In this document: in pieces, positions 47,419-61,869 of the stretch | Layout: each line of letters begins with the position of its first letter | Position numbering within the stretch: position 1 is the first letter of the stretch | Assembly (NCBI RefSeq): GCF_028869115.1 | Contig: NZ_CP079800.1 | Location: forward strand, 62,001-126,000 | Source: Pseudemcibacter aquimaris | Lineage (GTDB): Bacteria > Pseudomonadota > Alphaproteobacteria > Sphingomonadales > Emcibacteraceae | DNA length: 64,000 nucleotides | Reading direction: 5' to 3' | Made by a program: the position numbers and the translations under genes | Notes under the pieces: model-generated | What the model was told of the DNA's origin: nothing | Databases searched by the model: none | Seen by the model: only the letters and a program-made list of their open reading frames with translations

Positions 47419-47862
47419 TTATTTTTCCCTGATATAGCCTGTCAACTTGGTAAGGATATTGGTTAATTGTTCCTGTTCGTTTTTGCTTAGGGATTGAAGT
47501 ATTTCATTTTCATATTTTAATACCATTGGCACAATCGCTTTATAGGTTTCTTGTCCTTTTTCAGATAGGGCAAGTTCGGAACGTCTTTTATCGTCATCTG
47601 AAAAACAACGGGTGACTAGACCGTTTTTAATCATGTTATTGATGGCGCGACTTACGGCCACCTTATCCATTGCGGTTTTTTCAGCAACCAATCCTGCCGA
47701 AACACCACTGGATACACCGAGAACAGCCATCACACGCCATTCCGTATGGGCAATGCCGAATTTTTCGGTGTAAAGTTTTGCAAGATCACTACTGATTAAA
47801 TTGGTAAGATAGGAAAGTTTATACGGTAAAAATTCTTCCAGAAGCAGTGTGTTTTTTGTCAT
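47419..47862 (-). CDS. MarR-family transcriptional regulator
   Basis: A 147-residue winged-helix regulator (from ATG 47862; an upstream in-frame start at 47892 would overlap the operator). Helical dimerisation ends flank the DNA-binding core WRVMAVLGVSSGVSAGLVAEKTAMDKVAVSRAINNMIKNGLVTR with the wing FSDDDKRRSELALSEKG. These are standard MarR features. It is divergent from fumarylacetoacetase, with an 18-bp palindrome between them that also occurs before the deiodinase-like gene. I infer it is the local repressor, with an aromatic catabolite as possible ligand. Confidence 0.9.
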   Translation of the reverse strand: MTKNTLLLEEFLPYKLSYLTNLISSDLAKLYTEKFGIAHTEWRVMAVLGVSSGVSAGLVAEKTAMDKVAVSRAINNMIKNGLVTRCFSDDDKRRSELALSEKGQETYKAIVPMVLKYENEILQSLSKNEQEQLTNILTKLTGYIREK

Positions 47863-47893
47863 TTTGATTTCTTTTTTATAATTTACTTGCAAT

Positions 47894-47911
47894 TAGTTTC
47901 ATTTGTAACTA
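47894..47911. promoter_or_regulatory. Putative MarR operator, marR/fah intergenic region
   Basis: TAGTTTCATTTGTAACTA is an imperfect palindrome (arms TAGTTTC and GTAACTA, 6 of 7 paired, 4-bp centre). It lies 31 bp upstream of marR and 58 bp upstream of fah. A 16/18 identical copy lies at 57690-57707. Confidence 0.6.
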
Positions 47912-47969
47912 TTATATATTCATCAATTCAATAGGTCAATATTATATAATTTGTAAGAAAGAGCAAACC

Positions 47970-48953
47970 ATGAAACTGGCATCATTAAAACAGGGTAGAG
48001 ACGGCAAGCTGGTCGTCGTATCAAAAGATCTTTCAAAATATGTGGGTGCGGGTGATATTGCCCCGACCATGCAAGCCGCACTGGATGATTGGGAAAACAC
48101 TGAACCAAAGTTGGTCGCGCTTTATGATGCGCTGCAAAATGGTGATGTCGAAGGCAGTGATTTTAACCCGTGTGAATGTGATGCGCCGCTGCCGCGTTCT
48201 TATCATTGGGTTGATGGCAGTGCTTATGTAACCCATGTTGAATTGGTGCGTAAGGCACGTGGTGCAGAATTACCACCAAGTTTTTGGGAAGATCCACTTG
48301 TTTATATGGGGGCATCTGATGCTTTTATTGGTCCATGTGACGATATTGAGGCCGGATCGGAAGAATGGGGCATCGATCTTGAAGCCGAAGTCGCGGTAAT
48401 TACCGACGACGTGCCAGCAGGCACAAAGGGTGAAGACGCCAAAAAACATATTAAGCTTGTCTCAATTTTAAATGATGTATCATTGCGTAATTTGATCCCG
48501 GCGGAACTTGGGAAACAATTTGGTTTTTATCAATCAAAACCATGGACGGCATTTGCGCCTGTGTTTGCGACACCTGATGAATTGGGTGATGCATGGGACG
48601 GTGCAAAAGTACATTTGCCATTACATGCAATTTTAAACGGTGAAAAAATCGGTTCACCAAATGCCGGTATTGATATGACATTTGATTTCGCGGAACTGAT
48701 TGAACATTGTGCAAAATCACGCTCGCTTGTGGCGGGTACTGTAATTGGTTCCGGTACCGTATCGAATAAAGGTTCTCATGATGGATCATGCTGTCTTGCA
48801 GAAGTGCGTTGTCTAGAAACCATTGCTGACGGAAAACCGACAACACCGTTTATGAGCTTTGGTGACCGTGTTGAAATCGATATGTTTGATGCGGATGGAA
48901 ACACAATTTTTGGCCGCATTGACCAAAAAGTGGTGCCATTTAACGAAGCATAA
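47970..48953 (+). CDS. Fumarylacetoacetase-family hydrolase
   Basis: Fumarylacetoacetase cleaves fumarylacetoacetate to fumarate and acetoacetate, the last step of tyrosine/homogentisate degradation. The 327-residue protein has the N-terminal domain typical of bacterial fumarylacetoacetases (MKLASLKQGRDGKLVVVSKD, IAPTMQAALDDW) and the FAH catalytic fold. The latter includes the metal-site region IDLEAEVAVITDDVPAGT, GFYQSKPWTAFAPVF and GTVSNKGSHDGSCCLAE. No other homogentisate genes adjoin it. The divergent MarR gene is its likely regulator, and the gene is followed by a terminator. Confidence 0.85.
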   Translation: MKLASLKQGRDGKLVVVSKDLSKYVGAGDIAPTMQAALDDWENTEPKLVALYDALQNGDVEGSDFNPCECDAPLPRSYHWVDGSAYVTHVELVRKARGAELPPSFWEDPLVYMGASDAFIGPCDDIEAGSEEWGIDLEAEVAVITDDVPAGTKGEDAKKHIKLVSILNDVSLRNLIPAELGKQFGFYQSKPWTAFAPVFATPDELGDAWDGAKVHLPLHAILNGEKIGSPNAGIDMTFDFAELIEHCAKSRSLVAGTVIGSGTVSNKGSHDGSCCLAEVRCLETIADGKPTTPFMSFGDRVEIDMFDADGNTIFGRIDQKVVPFNEA

Positions 48954-48979
48954 TAAAAAAATATATAGTGATTATGATT

Positions 48980-49015
48980 AAGGCTCGTTACTATAGCGGG
49001 CCTTATTTATTTTTA
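48980..49015 (+). terminator. Terminator after fumarylacetoacetase
   Basis: AAGGCTCG (48980-48987) pairs with CGGGCCTT (48997-49004), including one G-U pair, around a 9-nt loop. It is followed by ATTTATTTTT. It lies 27 bp after the stop codon. Confidence 0.7.
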
Positions 49016-49050
49016 GCTATGATTAATATTTTAGAATTGAAACAGCATCT

Positions 49051-50130
49051 ATGAACCATAAAGCATTAAAATATTTAGATCCACATAAGGGATATTTTTA
49101 TGCAATCCAAATTGTGCTTTGGGTTTTATATGGTTTGATATTCCGCCTTATATGGGTTGGTTATGATCAATATACCCCGCCTGAGCCAGCATGGTACATT
49201 GTCTATAATACCGGTGGCTTTATCTGTAGTTCATTTCTGGCGCTAATATTATGGAAATGTAAGGATAAAGAATTTTATTCCCAATGTATCATTGCCCTTT
49301 TTTGTGCAATGATTGTCGCGGTAATTTGGCGATATACATTCAATTATATTGATATCCATATTTTACTTGGTAAACAGCCAAAGGAAATTGACTTTTTCAA
49401 ATATATTATTGGGGGAATGTCATCATTCATACAGCTCTTGGCGTGGAGCATCGGGTATCTGTTAATCCTGTTTTATATTAAATACGAAGATCAACAGGCG
49501 CGCGCAGCGAAGGCAGAATTGCAGGCAAAAGAAGCGATCATCAAACAACTTCATCAACAAATTAGCCCGCATTTTCTTTTTAATGTCTTGAATAGCGTTG
49601 ATACCATGCTGATGAAAGAGGATGTCGGTGAGGCCAGATCAATGGTCGCGAAATTAAGTGAATATTTAAGACAGTCTTTAAAAAATAAAAATGAATATAG
49701 CACCACCTTAAAAGAAGAAATAAGCAGCGCCGCCAAATATCTTGAAATTGAAAAGGTGCGTTTTAAAGATAAATTGGATATTCGGTTTTCAAATGAACAA
49801 GATACCAATGATTTTCTGGTTCCAAGATTGATACTGCAGCCGCTTTTGGAAAATGCCATTAAGCATTCCATTAATTACAATATTCATGGGGGCATGATTG
49901 AAATCGGTAGCCGTCTTAATCAGAACACACTTGTCATTTATGTAAAAAATACCGCGAGAGATCATGAAAATGGTCAGGACGTGAAAAATGAAAAACATGG
50001 TATCGGGCTTGATAATACAAAAGCACGTATTGCCGTCTTTTATGGGGAAAAAGCCCACGTGGATATTGTTAGTAATGCTGAAGAATTTAAAGTGACTATA
50101 ACCATTCCGATGGACAGTTTTGATCAATGA
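49051..50130 (+). CDS. LytS/YehU-type sensor histidine kinase
   Basis: The 359-residue protein has about four membrane helices in the first 150 residues. A short coiled segment (ARAAKAELQAKEAIIKQL) leads to the His_kinase domain with the phosphoacceptor in QISPHFLFNVLNSVDTML. The ATPase part has LILQPLLENAIKHSINY and GIGLDNTKARIAVFYG. Histidine kinases of this class pair with LytTR response regulators. The next gene is one, overlapping by 4 bp. No extracytoplasmic sensor domain is evident, so the signal may be membrane-borne. Confidence 0.93.
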   Translation: MNHKALKYLDPHKGYFYAIQIVLWVLYGLIFRLIWVGYDQYTPPEPAWYIVYNTGGFICSSFLALILWKCKDKEFYSQCIIALFCAMIVAVIWRYTFNYIDIHILLGKQPKEIDFFKYIIGGMSSFIQLLAWSIGYLLILFYIKYEDQQARAAKAELQAKEAIIKQLHQQISPHFLFNVLNSVDTMLMKEDVGEARSMVAKLSEYLRQSLKNKNEYSTTLKEEISSAAKYLEIEKVRFKDKLDIRFSNEQDTNDFLVPRLILQPLLENAIKHSINYNIHGGMIEIGSRLNQNTLVIYVKNTARDHENGQDVKNEKHGIGLDNTKARIAVFYGEKAHVDIVSNAEEFKVTITIPMDSFDQ

Positions 50131-50864
50131 TAAGAACATTAATAATTGATGATGAAATTCTTGCCAGAGAAAACATAATTTTACGCCTTGAAAAAGAGGA
50201 TGGTTTTGAAATTGTCGGTCAGGCCGACAACGGCAATGATGCAGTATTACTGGTGGACCGATTAAAACCGGATTTAATTTTCCTTGATATAAATATGCCG
50301 GGAATGAACGGCTTAGATGCTGCGAAAGAATTATCAGAATATGCGGATGTCATGATTATTTTTGTGACCGCATATGATGATCACGCAGTTGAAGCTTTTC
50401 AGGTAGATGCGCTTGATTATCTGTTAAAACCGATCAATGACGAACTTTTTAAAGAAACCATTGAACGTGTGAAAAACAGATCGGTTCAAATAAGCAGTGC
50501 AAAAAATAATAAACCGTCTAAATCAATATCATATCTCAAAAGATTAGGGATCAGAGACAAGAATAATATCTATATGATTGATGTTGAAAAAATTGAAACG
50601 GTTGAAGTCGCAGGTGATTATCTTTGTATCACGGCGGGTGGGGATACCTATATTCACAGACAACCATTATCATCGCTGTTGGATATGCTAAATCCGGATA
50701 AATTCATCAGACTTCACCGGTCCCATGCCGTCAATGAAAATTATCTGGAATCATTCGTCGATAAGGACGGATATCATGTTCAGATGAAGAACGGAAAACA
50801 GCTTCCCGTCAGTCGCAGATATCAAAAACAGGTCAAAGATTTTCTAATTGAAAAACTGAATTGA
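50127..50864 (+). CDS. LytTR-family response regulator
   Basis: The 245-residue protein has a receiver domain (phosphoacceptor D54 in LIFLDINMPGMNG, K101 in YLLKPIND, acidic IIDDE at the N-terminus). A C-terminal LytTR DNA-binding domain follows (about 135-245: IETVEVAGDYLCITAGGDTYIHRQPLSSLL, FIRLHRSHAVN, LPVSRRYQKQVKDFL). It is coupled to the LytS-like kinase. Its stop codon is the first three bases of a 13-bp direct repeat that matches the LytTR consensus, so its target is probably the next operon. Confidence 0.95.
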   Translation: MIRTLIIDDEILARENIILRLEKEDGFEIVGQADNGNDAVLLVDRLKPDLIFLDINMPGMNGLDAAKELSEYADVMIIFVTAYDDHAVEAFQVDALDYLLKPINDELFKETIERVKNRSVQISSAKNNKPSKSISYLKRLGIRDKNNIYMIDVEKIETVEVAGDYLCITAGGDTYIHRQPLSSLLDMLNPDKFIRLHRSHAVNENYLESFVDKDGYHVQMKNGKQLPVSRRYQKQVKDFLIEKLN

Positions 50865-50895
50865 CCGCTTGGCGTCCCGTAATGACCGTTTAGCG
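50862..50895 (+). promoter_or_regulatory. Tandem LytTR binding site upstream of the second molybdoenzyme operon
   Basis: TGACCGCTTGGCG (50862-50874) and TGACCGTTTAGCG (50883-50895) are direct repeats, 11 of 13 identical, with a period of 21 bp, two helical turns. Inside them ACCGTTTAG fully matches the published LytTR half-site pattern [TA][AC][CA]GTTN[AG][TG], and ACCGCTTGG misses by one. The site lies about 80-115 bp before the 2Fe-2S subunit gene. Confidence 0.75.
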
Positions 50896-50976
50896 CAAAG
50901 CTGCCCACACTTACTGTACATTGTTATGTGATCATATTACCAAATGAATGTTTGATAATTTTATCTGGAGCATTCA

Positions 50977-51444
50977 ATGGTCAGCTTAAAAATAAACGGT
51001 AAAAATCATGACTTTAATGGCGATGAAGAAATGCCGTTATTGTGGTATCTGCGTGAAGAAATAAATCTGTCTGGCGCCAAATTTGGTTGCGGAATTGGTT
51101 CGTGCGGTGCCTGCACGGTCAATATCGACGGCCAAGCGGTTAGATCATGCATCATTTCCGTAAAGGACGCAGAAGACGCAAATATCACGACCATTGAAGG
51201 GCTTGAAAAAGAAAATAACCTGCATCCGGTTCAGCGTGCGTGGATTGATGAAGATGTTGCCCAGTGTGGATATTGTCAATCAGGACAAATCATGGCGACG
51301 GTGGCTTTTTTAAATGATCATCCAAATCCAACAGACCAAGACATAAACGAAAATATTTCAAATCTTTGCAGGTGTGCGACTTATTCACGCATCAGAAAAG
51401 CCATTCATAAATCCGCAGAATATATGGCGGAGGAAAAATCATGA
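50977..51444 (+). CDS. IorA-like (2Fe-2S) subunit (locus 2)
   Basis: The 155-residue small subunit of a second molybdenum hydroxylase, paralogous to 32902-33369. It has the ferredoxin motif GCGIGSCGACTVNIDGQAV and the second-cluster motif CGYCQSGQIM with CRCATYSRIRKA. No signal peptide is present, so export would depend on the partner subunit. A clear TCTGGAG ribosome-binding site precedes the ATG. The gene overlaps the large-subunit gene by 4 bp (ATGA) and starts 112 bp after the LytTR gene. Confidence 0.92.
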   Translation: MVSLKINGKNHDFNGDEEMPLLWYLREEINLSGAKFGCGIGSCGACTVNIDGQAVRSCIISVKDAEDANITTIEGLEKENNLHPVQRAWIDEDVAQCGYCQSGQIMATVAFLNDHPNPTDQDINENISNLCRCATYSRIRKAIHKSAEYMAEEKS

Positions 51445-53654
51445 ATAACGGCGCACAAACAACATCAAGACGTAATTTCTTAAAATCATCTTTTGCCATG
51501 GGGGCGCTTGTTCTTAGTTGCCCATTAAAAACCTTGGCAGATGTAACAGGCAATATCCTTCCGGATATTGTTGAGGGCGATCTGGGTATTTTTTTGAAAA
51601 TCTCATCAGCAAATATAATTACCATCGGATCGCCCATTCCTGATATGGGGCAGGGGGTAAGCACTGCCGTTCCTATGCTGCTCGCGGATGAGCTTGACGC
51701 AGATTGGGATCAAGTCAAAATTGAAAAATTAAAGCCTTACTTAACAATGATAAAGGGGCGGGTTGAAGAAAAAAATATCAGACAAAACGCCGGCGGTAGT
51801 CAGGGTATCAGAGAAGTATGGCTCGCCATGCGAGAGGCGGGTGCGATCGCCAGAAAACAATTATTAATGGCTGCATCCAAAAAAATGAATGTGGGATTGG
51901 ATGAGCTTTACACAGAAAAAAGCCATGTCATTCATAAAACAGATGGTCGCAAGATAGCATATGGTGATTTGATTGAAGAAGCCGCAAAAATTGATATTGG
52001 TGATGAAATTCCGCCTTTAAAAACCGCAGATCAATTTCACATTATCGGTCAGGAAATTAAAAATGAAATTTCCCCTGATATCGTAAGGGGTGTGCCCACT
52101 TTTGGCATAGATATGAAAATCGATAACATGCGTTATGCGATGATCAAAAGAAGCCCCTATTCAGAAGGAAGCGTTCAGGATTTTAATAGAGCCGAGATCG
52201 AAAATATGCCTGGCATTGATCATGTCACCGTATTTAACCGCATCCCCGAAGATCACACTAAAGCCCGTATCATGTCTGCTGGTGTGGCCATCATCGGCGA
52301 CAGTTTCTGGAATGTTAAAAAAGCATATGATGCAGTGGACGTCGTGTGGAACAAAGGACCCAATGCCCACAAAAGCAATGAATGGCTGGATGAACAATTT
52401 GATATTTTAGAAAAACAGGGCGGTCATGAGGTTCTATATGAATCAGGCGATGTTGATCAAGCCTTCAGCGATGCCGATCAAATTTTTGAAGCAACCTATG
52501 AAAACCCATATTGGGCGCATGTGTGTATGGAACCGCACGGCTGTATCGCGGATATCCGTGATGATGGTGCCGACATCATTGTATCCCATCAAACAACAGC
52601 GCGTGTGGCGAGAATTACACATGAATTAACGGACATCGATCTTAAAAACATCAATGTTAAAATGGCAAGAATGGGTACAGGCCTTGGCCGAAAATCACAT
52701 CGTGATTTTGTTTATGAAGCGGTCCTTTTATCCAAAGAAATTAATAAACCAGTTAAGGTTTACTGGACCCGTGAAGATGAAATTGAACAGGATTACTTTA
52801 ACCCGAAAGCACGACATATATTAAAAGCAGGCCTTGACCAGAATGGCAACATCAGTGGTATGACATATACGCTTCTTTGCGCCAATAATAACACCATCGC
52901 GTCAGAAGCTTTTCCGGCACATGCCATAGAAAATTTTAGAGCAAGCTTTGCTGTGGCAGAAGGATTGCAAACAGGCCCGTGGCGTGGCCCCATGGAAAAT
53001 TTGGCTGGATTTACCAATCAATCATTCCTTGATGAAATTGCGGTTACAACGGGGCAAGACCCATTTGAATTTAAAAGAAACCTTTTATCCGGTAAAGGGC
53101 AGGCCCAATATGACACATGGGATAACTTGCCGGTTAATCATGACCGGTTATTAGGTGTACTGGAACTTGCCGCCGAAAAAGCAAATTGGCAAGTGAATGC
53201 CAAAAAAGCAAGCGGGTATGGCCGTGGCATTGCCTGTCACTTTACTTTCGGCGGGTATGCAGCATGGGTTGTTGATGTCAAAATTGATCCTGATGGCACA
53301 TTACATATTTTAAAAGCAGTTGGCGCCATTGATTGCGGCATTGCTGTTAATAAGCTTGGGGTTAAAGCGCAAATGGAAGGGGGCGCACTTGATGGTTTCA
53401 GTGCCGCCTTAAACCAAAGTGTTGATTTTAAGGACGGCATGGCTGTTTCCAACAATTATGATCAGTATCAAATGGCACGGATCGGTGAATTGGAACCGGA
53501 AATAGAGGTGCATTTCGTTGAAAATGATCATCACCCAACAGGCGCGGGCGAAATCGGATTACCGCCTGCGATACCGGCGCTATTAAATGCGATTTATGAC
53601 GCAAGCGGTATTCGCATACGCAAACTTCCAATTGCGGATCAGCTTAAAAAATAA
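51441..53654 (+). CDS. IorB-like molybdopterin-binding subunit, Tat-exported (locus 2)
   Basis: The 737-residue catalytic subunit begins with a twin-arginine signal (SRRNFLKSSFAMGALVLS). It has the usual two-part molybdopterin-binding fold, with GSPIDMGQGV-type start (GSPIPDMGQGVSTAVPM), GTGLGRKSHRDFVYEAV, WTREDEIEQDYF, QTGPWRGPMENL, and the canonical active-site loop GAGEIGLPPAIPALLNAI. It keeps the GxGExGxPP motif that locus 1 has altered. Substrates in this family include N-heterocycles and aldehydes; which applies here is not visible. Confidence 0.9.
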   Translation: MNNGAQTTSRRNFLKSSFAMGALVLSCPLKTLADVTGNILPDIVEGDLGIFLKISSANIITIGSPIPDMGQGVSTAVPMLLADELDADWDQVKIEKLKPYLTMIKGRVEEKNIRQNAGGSQGIREVWLAMREAGAIARKQLLMAASKKMNVGLDELYTEKSHVIHKTDGRKIAYGDLIEEAAKIDIGDEIPPLKTADQFHIIGQEIKNEISPDIVRGVPTFGIDMKIDNMRYAMIKRSPYSEGSVQDFNRAEIENMPGIDHVTVFNRIPEDHTKARIMSAGVAIIGDSFWNVKKAYDAVDVVWNKGPNAHKSNEWLDEQFDILEKQGGHEVLYESGDVDQAFSDADQIFEATYENPYWAHVCMEPHGCIADIRDDGADIIVSHQTTARVARITHELTDIDLKNINVKMARMGTGLGRKSHRDFVYEAVLLSKEINKPVKVYWTREDEIEQDYFNPKARHILKAGLDQNGNISGMTYTLLCANNNTIASEAFPAHAIENFRASFAVAEGLQTGPWRGPMENLAGFTNQSFLDEIAVTTGQDPFEFKRNLLSGKGQAQYDTWDNLPVNHDRLLGVLELAAEKANWQVNAKKASGYGRGIACHFTFGGYAAWVVDVKIDPDGTLHILKAVGAIDCGIAVNKLGVKAQMEGGALDGFSAALNQSVDFKDGMAVSNNYDQYQMARIGELEPEIEVHFVENDHHPTGAGEIGLPPAIPALLNAIYDASGIRIRKLPIADQLKK

Positions 53655-53668
53655 TTAGGGGAACTTTA

Positions 53669-54085
53669 ATGAGCGTAAATCAAGCATTACAAAATAAAAT
53701 TCAAATATCGCTTTTTTTAATGCGGGTGAGCATTTTTCTCGTCATGTTTGTCTGGACTGTGGATAAGTTTACCGACACAAATATGGCAATCCAGATTTAT
53801 GAAGCTTTTTATTTCATAGGCGGCGTCAGCACAGAAATTATGCTGGCACTTGGTGCGATCGAAATGGTTTTAATTTTGGCCTTTGTGGCAGGTCTATGGA
53901 AAAATATTACTTATTCGGCCGTGCTGGTTTTACACGGCATTAGCACCCTGTCTTCATGGAAGCAATATATAAACATGGAACTGCTTTTTTATGCGGCATG
54001 GCCGATGTTTGCAGGATGCATCATGCTTTATCTGCTTCGTGATCTGGACACAAAGTTTATTTTAAAATTGCCTGAAAAAAATTAA
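53669..54085 (+). CDS. DoxX-like four-helix membrane protein
   Basis: The 138-residue protein has four hydrophobic helices (about 12-32, 50-72, 74-94, 104-122) with a DoxX-like pattern (RVSIFLVMFVWTVDKFTDTN, GAIEMVLILAFVAGLWKN). It lies 14 bp after the IorB-like gene and is thus probably the third gene of a LytTR-controlled operon. DoxX proteins are often associated with membrane redox enzymes, so it might link the periplasmic molybdoenzyme to the membrane. That role is inference. Confidence 0.7.
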   Translation: MSVNQALQNKIQISLFLMRVSIFLVMFVWTVDKFTDTNMAIQIYEAFYFIGGVSTEIMLALGAIEMVLILAFVAGLWKNITYSAVLVLHGISTLSSWKQYINMELLFYAAWPMFAGCIMLYLLRDLDTKFILKLPEKN

Positions 54086-55206
54086 AGGCGCTCAAGCACT
54101 GCGTATAACGCATCAAGCGAACTATGCCCTAATTTAATACTGCGTTCAGGGGACCATCCGGTTTCCTGATTTGGGCTGTCGACTGTGTCTTTAAATGGCA
54201 TTTCCAGTGTCATGGCAACTGCGTCATAACGGTCAGCGATATGATTGGTGCTCATTCCTAAATTAGCGGTGCCTGGTGCGCTTTTGGTATATCCCTTTTC
54301 ATTTTGGAAATCAGGATTTACGCGTTCCAGTTCGCGGCCAAACATATAGGCCGTATCAAGATTATATTGATTAAGGTTTGGAACCCCTTCGAAACAAGCA
54401 ATGAAATTATAAGGAAGCGCTTCATCACCGTGGCAATCCAATGAAAAATCAAGCCCCTTTTCATCCATCTTATTCCTAAGGTGGAATACTTCCGGGCTGA
54501 CATCAGGATCAGGATCGGCCCAATCGCGGTTCAGATTCTGACCTTTTGCATTGGTTCTTAAATGACCACGAATGCTGCCATCTGGGTTAGCATTCGGCAT
54601 TACATAAAACACACATTGATTAAGCAGTTCTCTTGAAAGCGCGTCATCATCATCAAGTAAGCGGTTCAAAATTCCCTCAACCATCCATTCGGCCATGCTT
54701 TCACCTGGATGCTGGCGGGCGAAAATCCATATTTTTTTCTTTTCATCACGTTCTTCGCCGATGGTCAGTAAATCAAGATCCCGTCCGTCACATGTTTCGC
54801 CGATTACATCCAGCTTCACACGTGGATGCGTTGCTGCCGTTGAAACCAGTTCCTGATGACGGTCATAACTATAGGGTGCAAAATATGCATAATAAACGCT
54901 ATCTGTTTCCGGAACGTGTTGGATGGTTAATGTGCCGTCTTTGTAAACGGTGCTCACTCTAAACCATGTTTCATGGTCATATGATGCACATGCCTGATAA
55001 TCTTCCCAGCCACCCGGATATGCTGCGCCTTCCGCATTTTCGATGTTCAGTGCGCATAGCTGCCCTTTGGCACCCGTAAGGCGGAAATGAAACCATTGAT
55101 AAAAATCAGAATTGTTATCTTTATTAATTGAAAGGCGGATATTGGCAGGGTTGCTTGCATCAATTACATTGATATTGCCGCTGTCGAAATTGCTGCTGAT
55201 TTTCAT
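54082..55206 (-). CDS. M14-family zinc carboxypeptidase (cytosolic carboxypeptidase-like)
   Basis: The 374-residue protein has an N-terminal beta-sandwich domain (FRLTGAKGQLCALNIENAEG, VYYAYFAPYSYDRHQEL) typical of the CCP/Nna1-like M14 subfamily. A carboxypeptidase domain follows with zinc ligands H166 and E169 (RQHPGESMAEW) and H259 (LDCHGDE). It also has the NPDGSIRGHLRTNAKGQNLNRDW substrate segment and catalytic E335 (TLEMPFKD). No signal peptide, so it acts in the cytoplasm. It is divergent from the peptide permease, which suggests joint peptide use. Confidence 0.93.
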   Translation of the reverse strand: MKISSNFDSGNINVIDASNPANIRLSINKDNNSDFYQWFHFRLTGAKGQLCALNIENAEGAAYPGGWEDYQACASYDHETWFRVSTVYKDGTLTIQHVPETDSVYYAYFAPYSYDRHQELVSTAATHPRVKLDVIGETCDGRDLDLLTIGEERDEKKKIWIFARQHPGESMAEWMVEGILNRLLDDDDALSRELLNQCVFYVMPNANPDGSIRGHLRTNAKGQNLNRDWADPDPDVSPEVFHLRNKMDEKGLDFSLDCHGDEALPYNFIACFEGVPNLNQYNLDTAYMFGRELERVNPDFQNEKGYTKSAPGTANLGMSTNHIADRYDAVAMTLEMPFKDTVDSPNQETGWSPERSIKLGHSSLDALYAVLERL

Positions 55207-55327
55207 GATGGTCTCTCATTTGTTGTTCTTGATTGTATTTATAATCTTAATTCTTTGAAACGTAAACGTGACATTTTGAAAATCTTCTGGCACAGTAGCG
55301 ACAAACAAAATGTATTAGGGAGTAAGG

Positions 55328-56875
55328 ATGTCTGACACGACCGAAGAAATGTATAAAGGCTCGCAAGAACGAAACTTGATGGGCCATCCAATTGGGTTAT
55401 CGATCTGTTTTTTGACAGAAATGTGGGAACGTTTTTCCTATTATGGGATGCGTGCCATCCTTATACTTTATCTAACGAAATATCATCTGTTTGGTGCCGA
55501 TAAAGCAAATATGATTTATGGTGCCTATATGGGCATGGTTTATATGATGCCAATCATCGGTGGATATATGGCCGATAGATATCTCGGTAGCCGTAAAGCC
55601 GTAACATATGGCGCAATTTTACTGGTTGCGGGACATGGGTTGATGGGCTTTCATGGCCCTGCTGCCTATATGGATGGTGATATCGTTGTTAGAGATGAAT
55701 TTTATATCAATATTTTCTTCTTATCACTTGCATTAATTATTACGGGTGTCGGTTTTCTGAAGGCTAATATTTCTACCGTGGTTGGCGCCTTATATGGCCC
55801 AAATGATCCACGTCGTGATGGTGGCTTTTCCATTTTTTATATGGGCATTAACCTTGGATCTCTTTTCTCGATGGGCCTAGTTGGTTATGTCGGTGAAACA
55901 TACGGTTGGAATTATGGATTTTCCATTGCCGGTATTGGCATGTTTTTTGGTCTTTGTGTCTTTCTATGGGGGCAGAAATACCTTGATGGAAGAGGTGATC
56001 CAGCGAACCCAGAGGTCTTAAAAGAAAAATCCCCGATTGGATTAAATAAAGAAAATACAATTTATTTGTTTGGTATGGGTCTGGTCGCGGCCAGTTATAT
56101 AATGATGAAATATGATGAACTTGTCATTCAGTTTGTCGGTATTTCAGGTTTGATAATGGTATCCATTATCTTGTTTTATTCCTTTTCTCAATGTGAAAAA
56201 GAGGACAGAGAAAGACTTTGGGTCGCACTAATATTGATTGCGGTGCAAAGTGTCTTCTGGGCGCTCTTTGAGCAGCAGGGAGCAAGTCTAACATTGCTTA
56301 CGGATCAGCAATTTAATCTTACGTTTCTTGGTATAACGTTTAAAGCGTCGCAAGTGCAGCTTTTAAATGCTCTCTTTATTGTAATGCTGGCTCCGGTGAT
56401 GGCATGGCTTTGGCTGGCACTTGCAAAGCGAAATCTTGAGCCATCGACGCCTGCTAAATTTGGATATGCACTGCTTATTATTGGTGCGGGTTTTATTATA
56501 TTCTCATGGGCGCTGACATTAGATGATACATCAAATAAAGATTTTATCTGGCTGGTGTTTATTTATCTTATGGTGACTTTGGCGGAATTATTCTTAAGTC
56601 CGGTTGGACTTTCCATGGTAACGAAATTAAGTGTGCCGAAAATCGTTGGTATGATGATGGGAACTTGGTTCTTGTTTACTGCACTCGGTAGTAACCTTGC
56701 TGGCGTCATTAGTTCATTAATGGGAAGTGGTGAACATGGTGCCGCTGCTGGAACATTGGATATGGCAGCGACCGTTGAGCTTTATACCATGATCGGTGTG
56801 TTTAGTGCCGGTGTTGGTTTATTCATATTATTATTGGCCCCCATTATGAAAAAATGGATGCACGGCGTTCATTAA
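55328..56875 (+). CDS. POT-family proton-coupled peptide permease
   Basis: Imports di- and tripeptides with protons. The 515-residue MFS protein has the family-defining ExxERFxYYG motif at E31-G40 (EMWERFSYYG), followed by MRAILILYLTKY. It has about 12-14 helices, FLKANISTVVGALYGPNDPRRDGGFSIFYMGINLGSLF (POT signature 2) and FWALFEQQGASLTLL. Length is typical. It ends at a bidirectional terminator shared with the convergent deiodinase-like gene. Confidence 0.95.
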   Translation: MSDTTEEMYKGSQERNLMGHPIGLSICFLTEMWERFSYYGMRAILILYLTKYHLFGADKANMIYGAYMGMVYMMPIIGGYMADRYLGSRKAVTYGAILLVAGHGLMGFHGPAAYMDGDIVVRDEFYINIFFLSLALIITGVGFLKANISTVVGALYGPNDPRRDGGFSIFYMGINLGSLFSMGLVGYVGETYGWNYGFSIAGIGMFFGLCVFLWGQKYLDGRGDPANPEVLKEKSPIGLNKENTIYLFGMGLVAASYIMMKYDELVIQFVGISGLIMVSIILFYSFSQCEKEDRERLWVALILIAVQSVFWALFEQQGASLTLLTDQQFNLTFLGITFKASQVQLLNALFIVMLAPVMAWLWLALAKRNLEPSTPAKFGYALLIIGAGFIIFSWALTLDDTSNKDFIWLVFIYLMVTLAELFLSPVGLSMVTKLSVPKIVGMMMGTWFLFTALGSNLAGVISSLMGSGEHGAAAGTLDMAATVELYTMIGVFSAGVGLFILLLAPIMKKWMHGVH

Positions 56876-56895
56876 TATTAAAGATTTTAATAAAG

Positions 56896-56922
56896 AAAAG
56901 GCCCCGGATAGGGGCCTTTTTT
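56896..56922. terminator. Bidirectional terminator between the peptide permease and deiodinase-like genes
   Basis: AAAAGGCCCC pairs with GGGGCCTTTT around a short GGATA loop, followed by TTTTTTATT. The symmetric A/T flanks allow it to work for both convergent genes. Confidence 0.85.
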
Positions 56923-56928
56923 ATTGCT

Positions 56929-57645
56929 TTAAAACACTGTCATGATTTCATCAAGCGGCTTTTTCCATTTGGCGTGTACGGGTACAGTTGCCTTTTCATC
57001 AGGATGGCCTACCACCAAAATCATTTCCGGTTTTTCGCTTGCCGGACGGTCACAAAGTTCATTTAAGAACTTCATCGGGTTTGGTGTATGGGTCAGTGTG
57101 CTAAGTCCTGCTTTATGAAGCGCGGTGATTAGGAACCCTGTGGCAATACCAACGGATTCATTGACATAATAATTTTTAAATTTGCGACCATTTCGGTCAA
57201 CACTCGTACGCTGCGCAAAGATAACGATTAACCACGGTGCTTCGGTTAGATGCGGTTTATGATCATTGGTGCCGATTGGCTCAAGTGCACCCAACCATTC
57301 ATCGCTGGCGCGTCCTGCGTAAAATGTACGTTCTTCTTCCTCAGCGGCGTCGCGGATTTTTTGTTTATGTTCCGGACTTTCAATTACAGCAAAATGCCAC
57401 GGTTGATGATTTGCGCCACTTGGGGCAAGGCCGGCCGCTTTAATGCAGTTTTCGATGACTTCACGTGGTACAGGACGTGATGAATATTCACGGACTGTGT
57501 GTCGTGTTTTCATTAGCTCATAAAATTCTTCTGATTTTGCGATCATTTCGTCATCGCTCATGTCCCAACGATCGGGAATTGGCAATGCTTTATATTCATG
57601 ATCAAGCGGTATTGATGATTGATATTTTTTATCGTTTTCTGACAT
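56929..57645 (-). CDS. Iodotyrosine deiodinase-like flavin reductase (nitroreductase fold)
   Basis: The 238-residue protein belongs to the nitroreductase superfamily (RHTVREYSSRPVPREVI, AAGLAPSGANHQPWHFAVI). Its middle matches iodotyrosine deiodinase: E105 and Y109 in AEEEERTFY and K130 in GTNDHKP align with human E157, Y161 and K182 with identical spacing. Those residues close a lid over the halotyrosine. The end, RPASEKPEMILVVGHPDEKATVP, also follows the deiodinase. I chose ATG 57645 (GGAGGG ribosome site) over 57717. A MarR-type site lies about 45-60 bp upstream. Activity is inferred. Confidence 0.85.
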   Translation of the reverse strand: MSENDKKYQSSIPLDHEYKALPIPDRWDMSDDEMIAKSEEFYELMKTRHTVREYSSRPVPREVIENCIKAAGLAPSGANHQPWHFAVIESPEHKQKIRDAAEEEERTFYAGRASDEWLGALEPIGTNDHKPHLTEAPWLIVIFAQRTSVDRNGRKFKNYYVNESVGIATGFLITALHKAGLSTLTHTPNPMKFLNELCDRPASEKPEMILVVGHPDEKATVPVHAKWKKPLDEIMTVF

Positions 57646-57689
57646 TTGTGGCCCTCCATTTATTTGATTATTCAAATGATAACAGCATT

Positions 57690-57707
57690 TTGTTTCATTT
57701 GCAACTA
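57690..57707. promoter_or_regulatory. Putative MarR operator upstream of the deiodinase-like gene
   Basis: TTGTTTCATTTGCAACTA is identical at 16 of 18 positions to TAGTTTCATTTGTAACTA in the marR/fah intergenic region, about 9.8 kb away. It lies 44 bp upstream of the ATG at 57645, a suitable repressor position. Confidence 0.55.
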
Positions 57708-57747
57708 ATTGCCTCATATGCGCATTGAAACATATCAGTCATAAAAT

Positions 57748-57911: not shown

Positions 57912-60728
57912 ATGGCTTTTTCAAAGAAGAAGTGTCGCCTTGCCCTTATGGCAGGTATCAGCTCTTATGCATTAATGGCTGCGAGTGCACATGCGGCGGA
58001 TGTAACAGGACGTGTTGTAGCAAAAAGTGATAACAACGGCCTTGAAGGCGCAATCGTATCAGTATCAGATTCAAACTACCGTGCGACAACAGAACGTGAT
58101 GGTTCGTTTAGAATTCCAAATCTGCCAACGGGTCAACATACGCTTGTTGTAAAATATATTGGTGCGGATAGCATCGCAAAGACAATCGATGTTGTTGATG
58201 GTGAAAGTGCACCGGTTGAAATCGCCCTTTCAGCTGCGGGCGCGGTGGACCATATTCTGGTTGTTGGTCAGCGCGGAAGTCTGAACAGCTCGATTTCAAA
58301 ACAGCGTGCGGCTGATAATATATCAAACTTTCTAACTGCGGATAATGCCGGTAACTTCCCAGACCAAAATATCGCTGAAGCCGCCCGCCGTCTTGTTGGT
58401 CTTTCCGTTGAAAATGACCAGGGCGAGGGACGCTATATCGTTGTACGTGGTCTTGATAGTAATTTAAACTCAACATCATTTAACGGTGTAAGTCTTCCGT
58501 CACCAGAGGGCGATACACGTAAAGTGGCGCTTGATGTTATTCCAAGTGACATGCTTGAAACAGTAGAGGTCACCAAATCCGCAACACCGGATATGGATGG
58601 TAACTTTATTGGTGGTAACGTTGAAGTTCGCACCATTTCCGGTTTTGACCGTGAAGAGCTTTTCTTAAAAGGGAAATTGGAACTTGGTTATAACGATCTT
58701 GAAGATGCATATAACCCAATGGGCAGTTTTACATTTGCTAATCCATTAAGTGAGCAATTCGCGGTTTCTGGCGGCATTAGTTATAAAAGCCGTAAGTTTG
58801 GTGCGACCAATTTTGAATCCGGTGGTGAATATGCCGATGAAGATGATCTGGATGTTCCAGCGATGGAAGAGCTTGAATTTAGAGATTATAAAGTGACACG
58901 TGACCGTATTGGTGCGGCTTTCAATATTGATATTCGTCCGGACGAAGACAACGAACTTTATATCCGTTCAATGTACACTGATTTCAAAGACGAAGAATAC
59001 CGCGACCGTATGGAAGTATCATTCGGTAAAGGTGATATTGATTTTGATAACAGCAGTGGCAGCACAGTTAATTTCACGGATTTCCGTGTTGACCGTGAAC
59101 TAAAAGACCGTCTTGAAACACAGAAAATCTATTCTGTAATCACGGGTGGTGAAAGCTACGTTGATAATTTCAAATTTGAATATTCAGCGTCTTATGCCCA
59201 TGCAGAAGAAACAGAGCCAGACCGACTAGATATAGCCTACCGTCAAAAAGATCTTTCCGGTGGTATCAATCTTGCTGATCCAATGATGCCTATGCTTGCA
59301 TTTGATAATGACCAATTAGCAGCATTAAATGACCTGTCGGCATATGAATTAGACGGCATTGAATGGATTGACGGCATCACAGAAGATAAGCAATGGACCT
59401 TTAAATTCGATATGACATATGAAACGGACTTAAATGGTGTTCAGGCAGCCTTTAAATTCGGTACCAAATATGCGACGCGTGAAAAAGTGCGTGATGTATC
59501 GTTCGTTGAATATGAAGATTTTGATGAAGGTGATTTTGTAGGTACTGTTTTTGATGGCATGACGCTTGCTGATGTATCGGCACCTATTGATCATAATATT
59601 GACACGACCACTTTTAACAATGGCGTAAGAACTGACTGGAGCAAAGAATATCTTTCTGCATTACAAACTGCGGGTGGAACATTTGATCCTGACGATGCCC
59701 ATGAAGATGCCATTCTTGATGATTATAAAGTAGAAGAAGATATCTTCGCTGCATATGCGATGGGTACATTCAATGTTGATGATTTTACCATCATCGGTGG
59801 CGTACGCTGGGAACAAACCAAGGTTGATACATTTGGTAACGTACTACAGGAAGGTGATGATGAAGGTTTTCAGGAATTCACAAGAAGCAGAAAATATGAC
59901 AACTTCCTTCCAAGTCTGAACATCAAATATTCGCCGTCAGATGATTTGGTGATCAGGGGTGCATATTACCGCACAGTGGTACGCCCTAACTTCTCTGATA
60001 TGGTGCCGTCAGGTACAATTGAATATGAAGATGGTATTCGTTCCGGATCGCTCGGTAATCCGGATTTAAGTCCATATAAAGCTGACAACTTTGATTTCGG
60101 TATTGAATATTACCCGAATAACAAAAGCATTCTTTCTGCGGGTATTTTCCATAAAAAACTTGGCAGCTTTATCTATGAACAGGGCTTAAGTGATACGAAT
60201 TATCTTGGTCGTTTTTATGATGATCTAAGCATTCCAAATAACGGTGAAGAAGCAGAAGTAACAGGTGTTGAGCTTAACGCACAAACACAACTGTCATCAC
60301 TTCCTGCGCCGTTTGATGGTGTGATACTTGGTGTTAACTATACATATGTTGACAGTAGCGCAAGCATCGAAGATGGTGATGGAAATCCGTATCTAACACC
60401 ACTTCCAAAAACTTCAAGCAACATTGCCAACTTTATCATCGGTTATGAAAAAGGCGGGTTTGCAGCAAGATTTGCAGTGTCATACCAAAGCGAATATCTG
60501 GATGAAGTATTCTCGGAAGGTGATGACGATAGATATGTCCTTGATCACGTTCAAATTGACGCCCAAGCATCATATGAATTTTTCGAAGGTTTCGAGGTTT
60601 ATGCGCAAGTATCAAACTTGAACAATCGTAATTTCCGTGCGGCCCTTAGACATGGTTCAACGGATTACCTAAGTCAGCGTGATGAATTTGGCTGGACAGG
60701 TAACACAGGTATTAAATTCAAATACTAA
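57912..60728 (+). CDS. TonB-dependent receptor with N-terminal carboxypeptidase-regulatory-like domain
   Basis: An outer-membrane active transporter. The 938-residue protein has a signal peptide ending SAHA (28) and a carboxypeptidase-regulatory-like beta domain (about 30-105: VTGRVVAKSDNNGLEGAIVSV). The plug (about 110-235) shows ADNAGNFPDQNIAEAARRLVG and the VENDQGEGRYIVVRGLD motif typical of the TIGR01782 group common in Caulobacter and sphingomonads. The 22-strand barrel ends in GNTGIKFKY with a terminal aromatic residue. A phytase gene follows by 73 bp, suggesting an inositol-phosphate-related substrate. Confidence 0.93.
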   Translation: MAFSKKKCRLALMAGISSYALMAASAHAADVTGRVVAKSDNNGLEGAIVSVSDSNYRATTERDGSFRIPNLPTGQHTLVVKYIGADSIAKTIDVVDGESAPVEIALSAAGAVDHILVVGQRGSLNSSISKQRAADNISNFLTADNAGNFPDQNIAEAARRLVGLSVENDQGEGRYIVVRGLDSNLNSTSFNGVSLPSPEGDTRKVALDVIPSDMLETVEVTKSATPDMDGNFIGGNVEVRTISGFDREELFLKGKLELGYNDLEDAYNPMGSFTFANPLSEQFAVSGGISYKSRKFGATNFESGGEYADEDDLDVPAMEELEFRDYKVTRDRIGAAFNIDIRPDEDNELYIRSMYTDFKDEEYRDRMEVSFGKGDIDFDNSSGSTVNFTDFRVDRELKDRLETQKIYSVITGGESYVDNFKFEYSASYAHAEETEPDRLDIAYRQKDLSGGINLADPMMPMLAFDNDQLAALNDLSAYELDGIEWIDGITEDKQWTFKFDMTYETDLNGVQAAFKFGTKYATREKVRDVSFVEYEDFDEGDFVGTVFDGMTLADVSAPIDHNIDTTTFNNGVRTDWSKEYLSALQTAGGTFDPDDAHEDAILDDYKVEEDIFAAYAMGTFNVDDFTIIGGVRWEQTKVDTFGNVLQEGDDEGFQEFTRSRKYDNFLPSLNIKYSPSDDLVIRGAYYRTVVRPNFSDMVPSGTIEYEDGIRSGSLGNPDLSPYKADNFDFGIEYYPNNKSILSAGIFHKKLGSFIYEQGLSDTNYLGRFYDDLSIPNNGEEAEVTGVELNAQTQLSSLPAPFDGVILGVNYTYVDSSASIEDGDGNPYLTPLPKTSSNIANFIIGYEKGGFAARFAVSYQSEYLDEVFSEGDDDRYVLDHVQIDAQASYEFFEGFEVYAQVSNLNNRNFRAALRHGSTDYLSQRDEFGWTGNTGIKFKY

Positions 60729-60801
60729 AAATCCACATTTTATTTCTGGAATGAGCGGGGTGTTAACCGCTCATTCCTTTTCAGTTTAGAGAGGCGGAAA
60801 A

Positions 60802-61869
60802 ATGATTAAACATTCACTGTTATTAAGTATGGTTTTTGCAGTTGCGGCATGTTCCGGTGGTGAACATCAATCCAGACAGATGGAAGGTGAAGCCAACATG
60901 GATGTGGTTTCAATTACGGCGGACCTGGAAACAGCACCTGTGAAAAGTGATGATGACGCGGCAGATGATCCTGCGATCTGGATCAATCATGAACATCCTG
61001 AAAATTCATACATTATCGGTACTGATAAGAAATCAGGCTTGCTTGTTTATAATCTGGATGGTGAAATCGTTGATTATCAACCATACGGCAATGAAAATAA
61101 TGTGGATTTAAGACAGAACCTAACTGGTGATCAGTTTGGCGGATATGACACATTAATGGCATCATCAAACAGAACAACCAATACGGTTGATATTATGACA
61201 ATGGGCCCGTCAGGAAAATTATCATTTCTTGGAACCTATCCCACAAACGCTGATCCATACGGTTTATGTGTTGGCCTACCTGCTGATAAGAAGGCGTTAC
61301 GTGTCCTGTTGAATTATAAAGACGGCCTTGTTCAAATTACCGATGTCAGTTTTGACGGGCAGGAAATGAAATATGAAAGACTGGCAGAATTTACGATGCC
61401 GGGTCAGCTTGAAGGCTGTGTTTTTGATGATCAGGCACAGGAATTTTTCCTTGGACAAGAAGATGGTGGTGTATGGCGTTTTCCAATGAATAATCCAGAA
61501 GGAAAAGGCGAATTACAAGCGGAAATTGGCCCAAGAACTGGCCTCGTGATCGACGTTGAAGGTATGGATATTTATCACGGCGAACATAAGAAAACATTGG
61601 TTGTATCCAGTCAGGGTGATTTTACATTTGTTGCTTTCGATATTACTGAAAATTCATTGGTTCCACTTACCAAGTTCAGAATTGCCGATAGACCGGAATT
61701 AAATATTGATGGTGTTCAGGAAACGGATGGCCTCGCTGTGACAAACTTCCCGTTATCCGCCAAATATCCAGAAGGCATTCTGGTGGTTCAGGACGGTGAA
61801 AACGAGGGCGGTATTCAGAACTTTAAAGTCATAGATTGGTTAAAGGTCGGTAATTTACTGTCGAAATAA
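60802..61869 (+). CDS. Beta-propeller phytase (lipoprotein)
   Basis: Hydrolyses phytate (inositol hexakisphosphate) in a calcium-dependent six-bladed propeller. The 355-residue protein has a lipoprotein signal (MIKHSLLLSMVFAVAAC, C17). The family sequences are DDAADDPAIWINHEHPENSYI, IGTDKKSGLLVYNLDGE and NNVDLR, then LEGCVFDDQAQEFFLGQEDGGVWRF and the C-terminal ETDGLAVTN and GILVVQDGEN. It is the partner of the preceding TonB receptor; the pairing of the two genes is known from other phytate-using proteobacteria. Confidence 0.93.
   Translation: MIKHSLLLSMVFAVAACSGGEHQSRQMEGEANMDVVSITADLETAPVKSDDDAADDPAIWINHEHPENSYIIGTDKKSGLLVYNLDGEIVDYQPYGNENNVDLRQNLTGDQFGGYDTLMASSNRTTNTVDIMTMGPSGKLSFLGTYPTNADPYGLCVGLPADKKALRVLLNYKDGLVQITDVSFDGQEMKYERLAEFTMPGQLEGCVFDDQAQEFFLGQEDGGVWRFPMNNPEGKGELQAEIGPRTGLVIDVEGMDIYHGEHKKTLVVSSQGDFTFVAFDITENSLVPLTKFRIADRPELNIDGVQETDGLAVTNFPLSAKYPEGILVVQDGENEGGIQNFKVIDWLKVGNLLSK

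Follow-up and report, generated by a model that had tools for sequence, protein, structure and literature searches.

A shared palindromic operator ties a MarR-type regulator gene and a predicted homogentisate regulon with a VOC-type dioxygenase to an iodotyrosine deiodinase-like gene in Pseudemcibacter aquimaris

The 64,000-nucleotide stretch of Pseudemcibacter aquimaris DNA analysed here (the window) comprises bases 62001-126000 of a genome that consists of a single contig of 3,369,470 bases and is rated 100% complete, and it holds a MarR-type regulator gene and two enzyme genes that share one operator. The regulator gene, marR (47419-47862, minus strand), encodes a likely regulon repressor of 147 amino acids (157 should translation begin at the TTG at 47892) with matches to Pfam MarR_2 and MarR above the cut-off. 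Divergent from it lies the gene of a fumarylacetoacetase-type hydrolase of 327 amino acids (FAH; 47970-48953, plus strand; Pfam FAA_hydrolase and FAA_hydro_N_2); neither product has an NCBIfam equivalog above its cut-off. The third gene (56929-57645, minus strand) encodes a flavoenzyme of 238 amino acids that resembles iodotyrosine deiodinase (IYD), as judged from its match to Pfam Nitroreductase (PF00881), its ranking of PDB structures and its active-site residues.

The first operator, TAGTTTCATTTGTAACTA, occupies 47894-47911 between marR (ATG 47862) and the FAH gene (ATG 47970), and the second, TTGTTTCATTTGCAACTA, occupies 57690-57707, 44 bases 5' of the IYD-like ATG at 57645, with 16 of 18 positions identical to the first. 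Both are exact palindromes, and both lie where the preliminary description, made from the letters of the window, had placed them. The longest open reading frame (ORF) of the IYD-like gene begins at 57717 and would render the second site intragenic; this start is disfavoured, given that same-genus relatives (L066-L076) align from query residue 1 of the 57645 start, and the site is for that reason taken as upstream. No other site with three or fewer mismatches was found in the window, dinucleotide shuffles of which yielded a mean of 0.08 such sites and two or more in only one of 100 shuffles.

Across the 3.37-Mb genome, the palindrome TWGTTNCANNTGNAACWA has four exact sites, and its reversed control pattern has none. 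Besides the two in the window, an exact copy of the 47894 site lies at C1:7093-7110 (C1 being contig coordinates), 36 bases 5' of a gene for a VOC (glyoxalase-superfamily) protein of 177 amino acids (C1:6523-7056); a one-mismatch copy lies at C1:373555-373572, 21 bases 5' of the scoA ATG, where a longer TTG-started ORF would include it. The earlier statement that there was no third copy thus stands for the window and fails for the genome. The preliminary description had named abundant random copies as a threat to its proposal; exact palindromes turned out to be rare, each preceding a regulon gene. It had also looked to hmgA, hppD and maiA as further targets, of which the first was searched for without success and the other two are without an operator, the new members being scoAB and the VOC gene instead. 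Position weight matrix (PWM) scores were 28.7 for the FAH site, 21.2 for the scoAB site and 15.3 for the IYD site, and the four genome sites with three mismatches scored 7.1, 7.2, 13.9 and 7.9. Three one-mismatch palindromes (one 5' of a MATE-like transporter gene, one within an ORF and one between ORFs) were left out of the regulon because allowing up to one mismatch gives just as many sites for the reversed control (7 vs 7).

The same specificity is seen in the 13 genomes of the genus (our own included), 11 of which carry a total of 28 exact sites, against one for the reversed pattern. Every one of the 28 precedes one of the same four genes: VOC (11), scoAB (8), marR/FAH (6) or IYD (3). Seventeen of them were attributed to a gene through tblastn searches of fetched loci, three after wider fetching, four in the genome itself and the remaining four by distance to earlier-listed gene matches. 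An operator also stands upstream of the VOC gene in all 22 other loci of its f1 set that include the upstream region (L016-L037, with an N in L036), and sites near marR have PWM scores of 16-30 in six loci (L175, L182, L183, L185, L186 and L187). The shared operator is real, rare and specific in genome and genus.

The fumarylacetoacetase reaction yields fumarate along with acetoacetate, which scoAB activates; here, the two sco genes match TIGR02429 and TIGR02428 above the cut-off. FAH and scoAB are thus in keeping with the homogentisate end of the tyrosine pathway, and in relatives FAH adjoins VOC or HmgA, HPPD and maiA. The genome's own VOC protein matched the PDB entry 9u42 (phmmer 8e-67; named Glyoxalase in that list), which was released on 2025-07-23 under the title "Crystal Structure of Homogentisate 1,2-Dioxygenase from Acinetobacter in Complex with Zn ion". 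A model of a VOC homologue some 90% identical to it (L095; mean pLDDT 89.2) also had 9u42 as its best PDB match, with a Foldseek value of 2.3e-23, 59% identity and TM scores of 0.86/0.91, the next named dioxygenase being the L-DOPA dioxygenase 6on3. Residues H6, H7, H84 and E132 are invariant in 10 of 10 sequences and are predicted to bind the metal. The dioxygenase role had first been proposed from the operator and from the mutual exclusion of VOC and HmgA, before the 9u42 match and its title were found. With scoAB and a protein of the homogentisate 1,2-dioxygenase type as members, and with a MarR gene bearing its own operator before these genes, the regulon is, on sequence grounds, that of the homogentisate pathway with a predicted VOC-type dioxygenase. 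Such a dioxygenase is not a new enzyme type, since it is named in the PDB; what is added here is its place in the regulon. None of the matches listed from the open-licence literature dealt with a homogentisate dioxygenase of the VOC type. The VOC fold is also used by chlorohydroquinone dioxygenases. The protein has no NCBIfam equivalog and matches only the general Pfam Glyoxalase family, so that annotation by NCBIfam or Pfam would miss this step, for which 186 of the order's 296 genomes have a VOC orthologue.

The preferred reading of the whole, which we regard as probable, is a local MarR repressor of the homogentisate branch acting at four promoters, one of them that of a dehalogenating IYD-like enzyme. 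The identity of this last protein bears directly on its strongest competitor. In the phmmer ranking of PDB structures, 5ko7 (an entry named Nitroreductase, which we take to be the Haliscomenobacter IYD) came first at 2e-64, followed by animal IYDs at about 1e-47, 6pz0 at 3e-26 and other nitroreductases at 1e-14 or weaker, which places the protein nearer to IYDs than to the rest of the nitroreductase family. Residues E91, Y95, K116 and T173 of 5ko7, of which the first three presumably form the substrate clamp and the last lies on the flavin side, correspond to E105, Y109, K130 and T187 in an alignment free of gaps in the clamp region. These four are kept in 19, 19, 19 and 18 of 19 aligned relatives (19 of 30 IYD loci gave a frame, our own locus possibly among them). 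It might be held instead that the regulon is a plain homogentisate one, in which the nitroreductase-family protein acts otherwise, for instance by reducing nitrotyrosine or benzoquinone acetate (oxidised homogentisate), with no dehalogenation. Nitroreductase-family proteins do reduce many quinones and nitro compounds, and no NCBIfam IYD model claims the protein; the clamp residues, kept in all 19 relatives, and the lead of more than 30 orders of magnitude that IYD structures hold over other nitroreductases make this account rather unlikely, if the most serious of those we weighed. Halotyrosine breakdown would be the most economical reading of the gene's membership in the regulon.

The next alternative concerns the VOC protein, which might have another role in the pathway, with homogentisate cleaved by some enzyme that has escaped recognition. 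Neither TIGR01015 nor PF20510 (the latter does detect a short type in relatives) revealed HmgA in the genome, and hmgA is consequently not a regulon member. Across the 296 genomes of the order, a VOC orthologue was present in 186, HmgA in 97, both in three (61 expected) and neither in 16; among the 246 genomes bearing FAH, the figures were 172 with VOC only, 62 with HmgA only, three with both and nine with neither. This near exclusion has a Fisher p of 7e-56, which is overstated because the genomes are related. The tally was compiled by hand from separate search results, with VOC counted at E<1e-60 (22 of 208 matches were weaker and were dropped) and one HmgA match (G178, E 3.9e-4) dropped. 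The 97 HmgA-bearing genomes comprise 77 with the canonical form and 20 with a short divergent type (open frames of 347-406 amino acids); the latter, a weak PF20510 match, stands where HmgA would, next to HPPD or FAH (L182:6201, L183:6914, L175:6384).

Gene order points the same way, in that VOC adjoins HPPD, and in several loci also FAH and maiA, as HmgA does in relatives. In L054, marR is divergent from HPPD-VOC-FAH-maiA-phenylalanine hydroxylase, and in L183 from HPPD-HmgA-FAH, L182 being alike with a gap before FAH. In 47 of 97 distinct VOC loci (three of 100 having been dropped as duplicates), an HPPD gene lies on the same strand no more than 2.6 kb away, its type being close in 32, middle in eight and far in seven. 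Outside the order set, HmgA was searched in 50 of the 55 VOC genomes of a named set, and nine of the 50 also carry it, which speaks against the replacement of one by the other; so do an Ideonella locus (L141) with VOC and HmgA together and a cluster of Azotobacter beijerinckii (L139:5887-12500) that unites HPPD, VOC, a TIGR01266-type fumarylacetoacetase, maiA, canonical HmgA and scoAB. In six of the nine genomes, the VOC gene lies beside a far-type HPPD (6/6 tested of that type), in two beside a flavoprotein hydroxylase and in one beside neither, whereas none of the 25 tested genomes in which VOC adjoins a close- or middle-type HPPD has HmgA. The VOC copies that coexist with HmgA fall mostly in separate clades, in a tree with unsettled bootstrap. 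As for the three overlaps within the order (G062, G015 and G295), the VOC copy of G062 adjoins a flavoprotein hydroxylase (L061), and G015 has VOC under an operator (L050) and a short HmgA beside FAH (L175). Coexistence would favour another role for the VOC protein, but the near exclusion in the order, the empty count beside close- and middle-type HPPD, the title of 9u42 and a search of ORFs of at least 140 amino acids beside maiA, which held no ring-cleaving dioxygenase, leave that role with little credit. The VOC protein seems, from these sequence comparisons, to replace HmgA as the ring-opening enzyme.

A second VOC context was observed beside a 557-amino-acid flavin adenine dinucleotide (FAD) hydroxylase (NF006002; L052:4545-8979, L057:5965-10379 and L061:5094-8500, and also L112, L118, L121, L123 and L153), some of these loci bearing a metallo-beta-lactamase-fold protein and FAH as well. 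The substrate there may be another para-hydroquinone, or homogentisate may be made from a hydroxyphenyl acid. The nearest named VOC gene records come from metagenome bins of Kordiimonadaceae and Emcibacteraceae; transfer or mis-binning may account for the orthologues whose bins carry the labels Gemmatimonadetes, Planctomycetaceae and Krumholzibacteriia (L110, L113, L132).

Conservation of the two window sites among relatives, on which the preliminary description had staked its regulon, was borne out within the genus, for the IYD site in most loci, and for that site did not extend to the 17 loci looked at outside it. A site of PWM at least 4 lies at -60 to -78 in seven of 11 other same-genus IYD upstreams, as compared with 41 of 5500 shuffled upstreams that had such a site anywhere. 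Strand was at first unsettled in seven of the 30 loci, and the scan was repeated with strands from tblastn; L079, whose match lies at a contig end and begins only with residue 64, was excluded from the count. Judged by these upstreams, the IYD-like gene is a predicted member of the regulon in most of this genus. With IYD orthologues (E<=1e-50) present in 150 of the 296 genomes of the order, most of them are probably not under this operator.

Together with the coexistence of VOC and HmgA noted above, a number of findings weigh against a regulon of the proposed scope. None of the genome's operator sites is near hppD or maiA: the HPPD gene (408 bits) adjoins an Lrp-type gene, and the maiA-type gene (261 bits) lies elsewhere, accompanied by genes for a flavin reductase and for a FAH-family hydrolase of 228 amino acids. 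At both window sites, promoter-like hexamers lie across or next to the operator, but shuffles contain just as many. The IYD site, at 15.3, is weaker than the others (21.2-28.7), and the site at C1:2010179, at 13.9 close behind it, precedes an unrelated ORF of 205 amino acids with no tyrosine link seen. In four of the 11 same-genus loci, the IYD site has decayed to a relic (L075) or is absent (L072, L074, L076), and in the 17 IYD loci outside the genus no site of PWM at least 4 was found (best 2.1 at -244, L093). That the 57690 site resembles the operator by chance, with the IYD-like gene outside the regulon, would agree with these last three findings and with its two mismatches to the 47894 copy, yet is very improbable, given that the site fits the palindrome exactly, that the genome lacks any exact match to the reversed pattern, and that a site recurs at the same place in seven of 11 same-genus relatives.

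As a rule, regulators of the MarR family act as dimeric repressors that bind palindromes at promoters. In the proposed mechanism, the local MarR-type repressor would sit on the palindrome at the four promoters when no inducer is present and leave them when the pathway is needed. FAH would be released from repression along with marR itself, the VOC-type homogentisate 1,2-dioxygenase would open the ring in the stead of HmgA, and scoAB would activate the acetoacetate freed by FAH. The IYD-like flavoenzyme would turn iodo-, bromo- or chlorotyrosine into tyrosine for the same pathway, this in vivo substrate being inferred, as are MarR binding and repression. The inducer may be homogentisate, to judge from the analogous HmgR of Pseudomonas putida, for which homogentisate is given as the anti-repressor in the part of PMC5343134 consulted. 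According to the same part, HmgR with hmgABC is likewise a local repressor of the homogentisate pathway, with the differences that HmgR belongs to the IclR family and that the dioxygenase is HmgA. Closer in family is HmgS, which that part presents as a MarR-family regulator predicted for hmgAB in Alteromonadales and Pseudoalteromonadales, and hence also as a local control of homogentisate genes; the regulon described here differs in its VOC-type dioxygenase, scoAB and IYD-like gene, and the two are likened by family and role, not by orthology or motif. An Acinetobacter baumannii strain, AB4353, lacks an hmgA homologue and has, between hmgC and hmgR, a gene with a type I ring-cleaving dioxygenase domain that is thought inactive (PMC7646211, in part). 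In a pigmented strain, hmgA was disrupted by a transposon and its overexpression led to loss of pigment; the part of PMC9431530 at hand leaves the type of hmgA, VOC or not, unstated.

The earlier idea of a halotyrosine regulon is upheld in part: marR, FAH and the IYD-like gene do share an operator, but hmgA is no member, and hppD and maiA have no operator. To our knowledge, the purpose of IYD-like enzymes in bacteria is unsettled. An operator placed before tyrosine-breakdown genes and an IYD-like gene hints at their role and, by tying such an enzyme to tyrosine catabolism, makes that purpose testable. We tentatively suggest, at somewhat less than even chances, that bacterial IYD can serve catabolism: under common control with homogentisate breakdown in this genus, halotyrosines, perhaps freed by an M14 carboxypeptidase from peptides imported by a POT-family symporter, might be dehalogenated and burned, and the VOC dioxygenase might tolerate halogenated homogentisate. 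No report of a bacterial IYD controlled together with tyrosine catabolism or homogentisate was among the open-licence matches listed.

In L195 (7739-10013), a maiA-type gene and a 228-amino-acid FAH-family hydrolase are accompanied by a 305-amino-acid protein with an N-terminal flavin-reductase domain; by eye its C-terminal half is MarR-like, with no Pfam match to confirm it. Convergent with the IYD-like gene and without an operator is the gene of a POT-family peptide:H+ symporter (55328-56875, plus strand; TIGR00924 above the cut-off), which all 13 same-genus loci have beside IYD and which none of the 17 other loci has within about 1.5 kb of it. Divergent from it, as a neighbour only, is an M14 carboxypeptidase gene (54082-55206, minus strand; Pfam M14 and its N-terminal domain). 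The M14, POT and IYD-like genes are consecutive at 54082-57645, in an order also found in L185, and 57912-61869 holds a TonB-dependent receptor gene followed by that of a phytase (PF02333).

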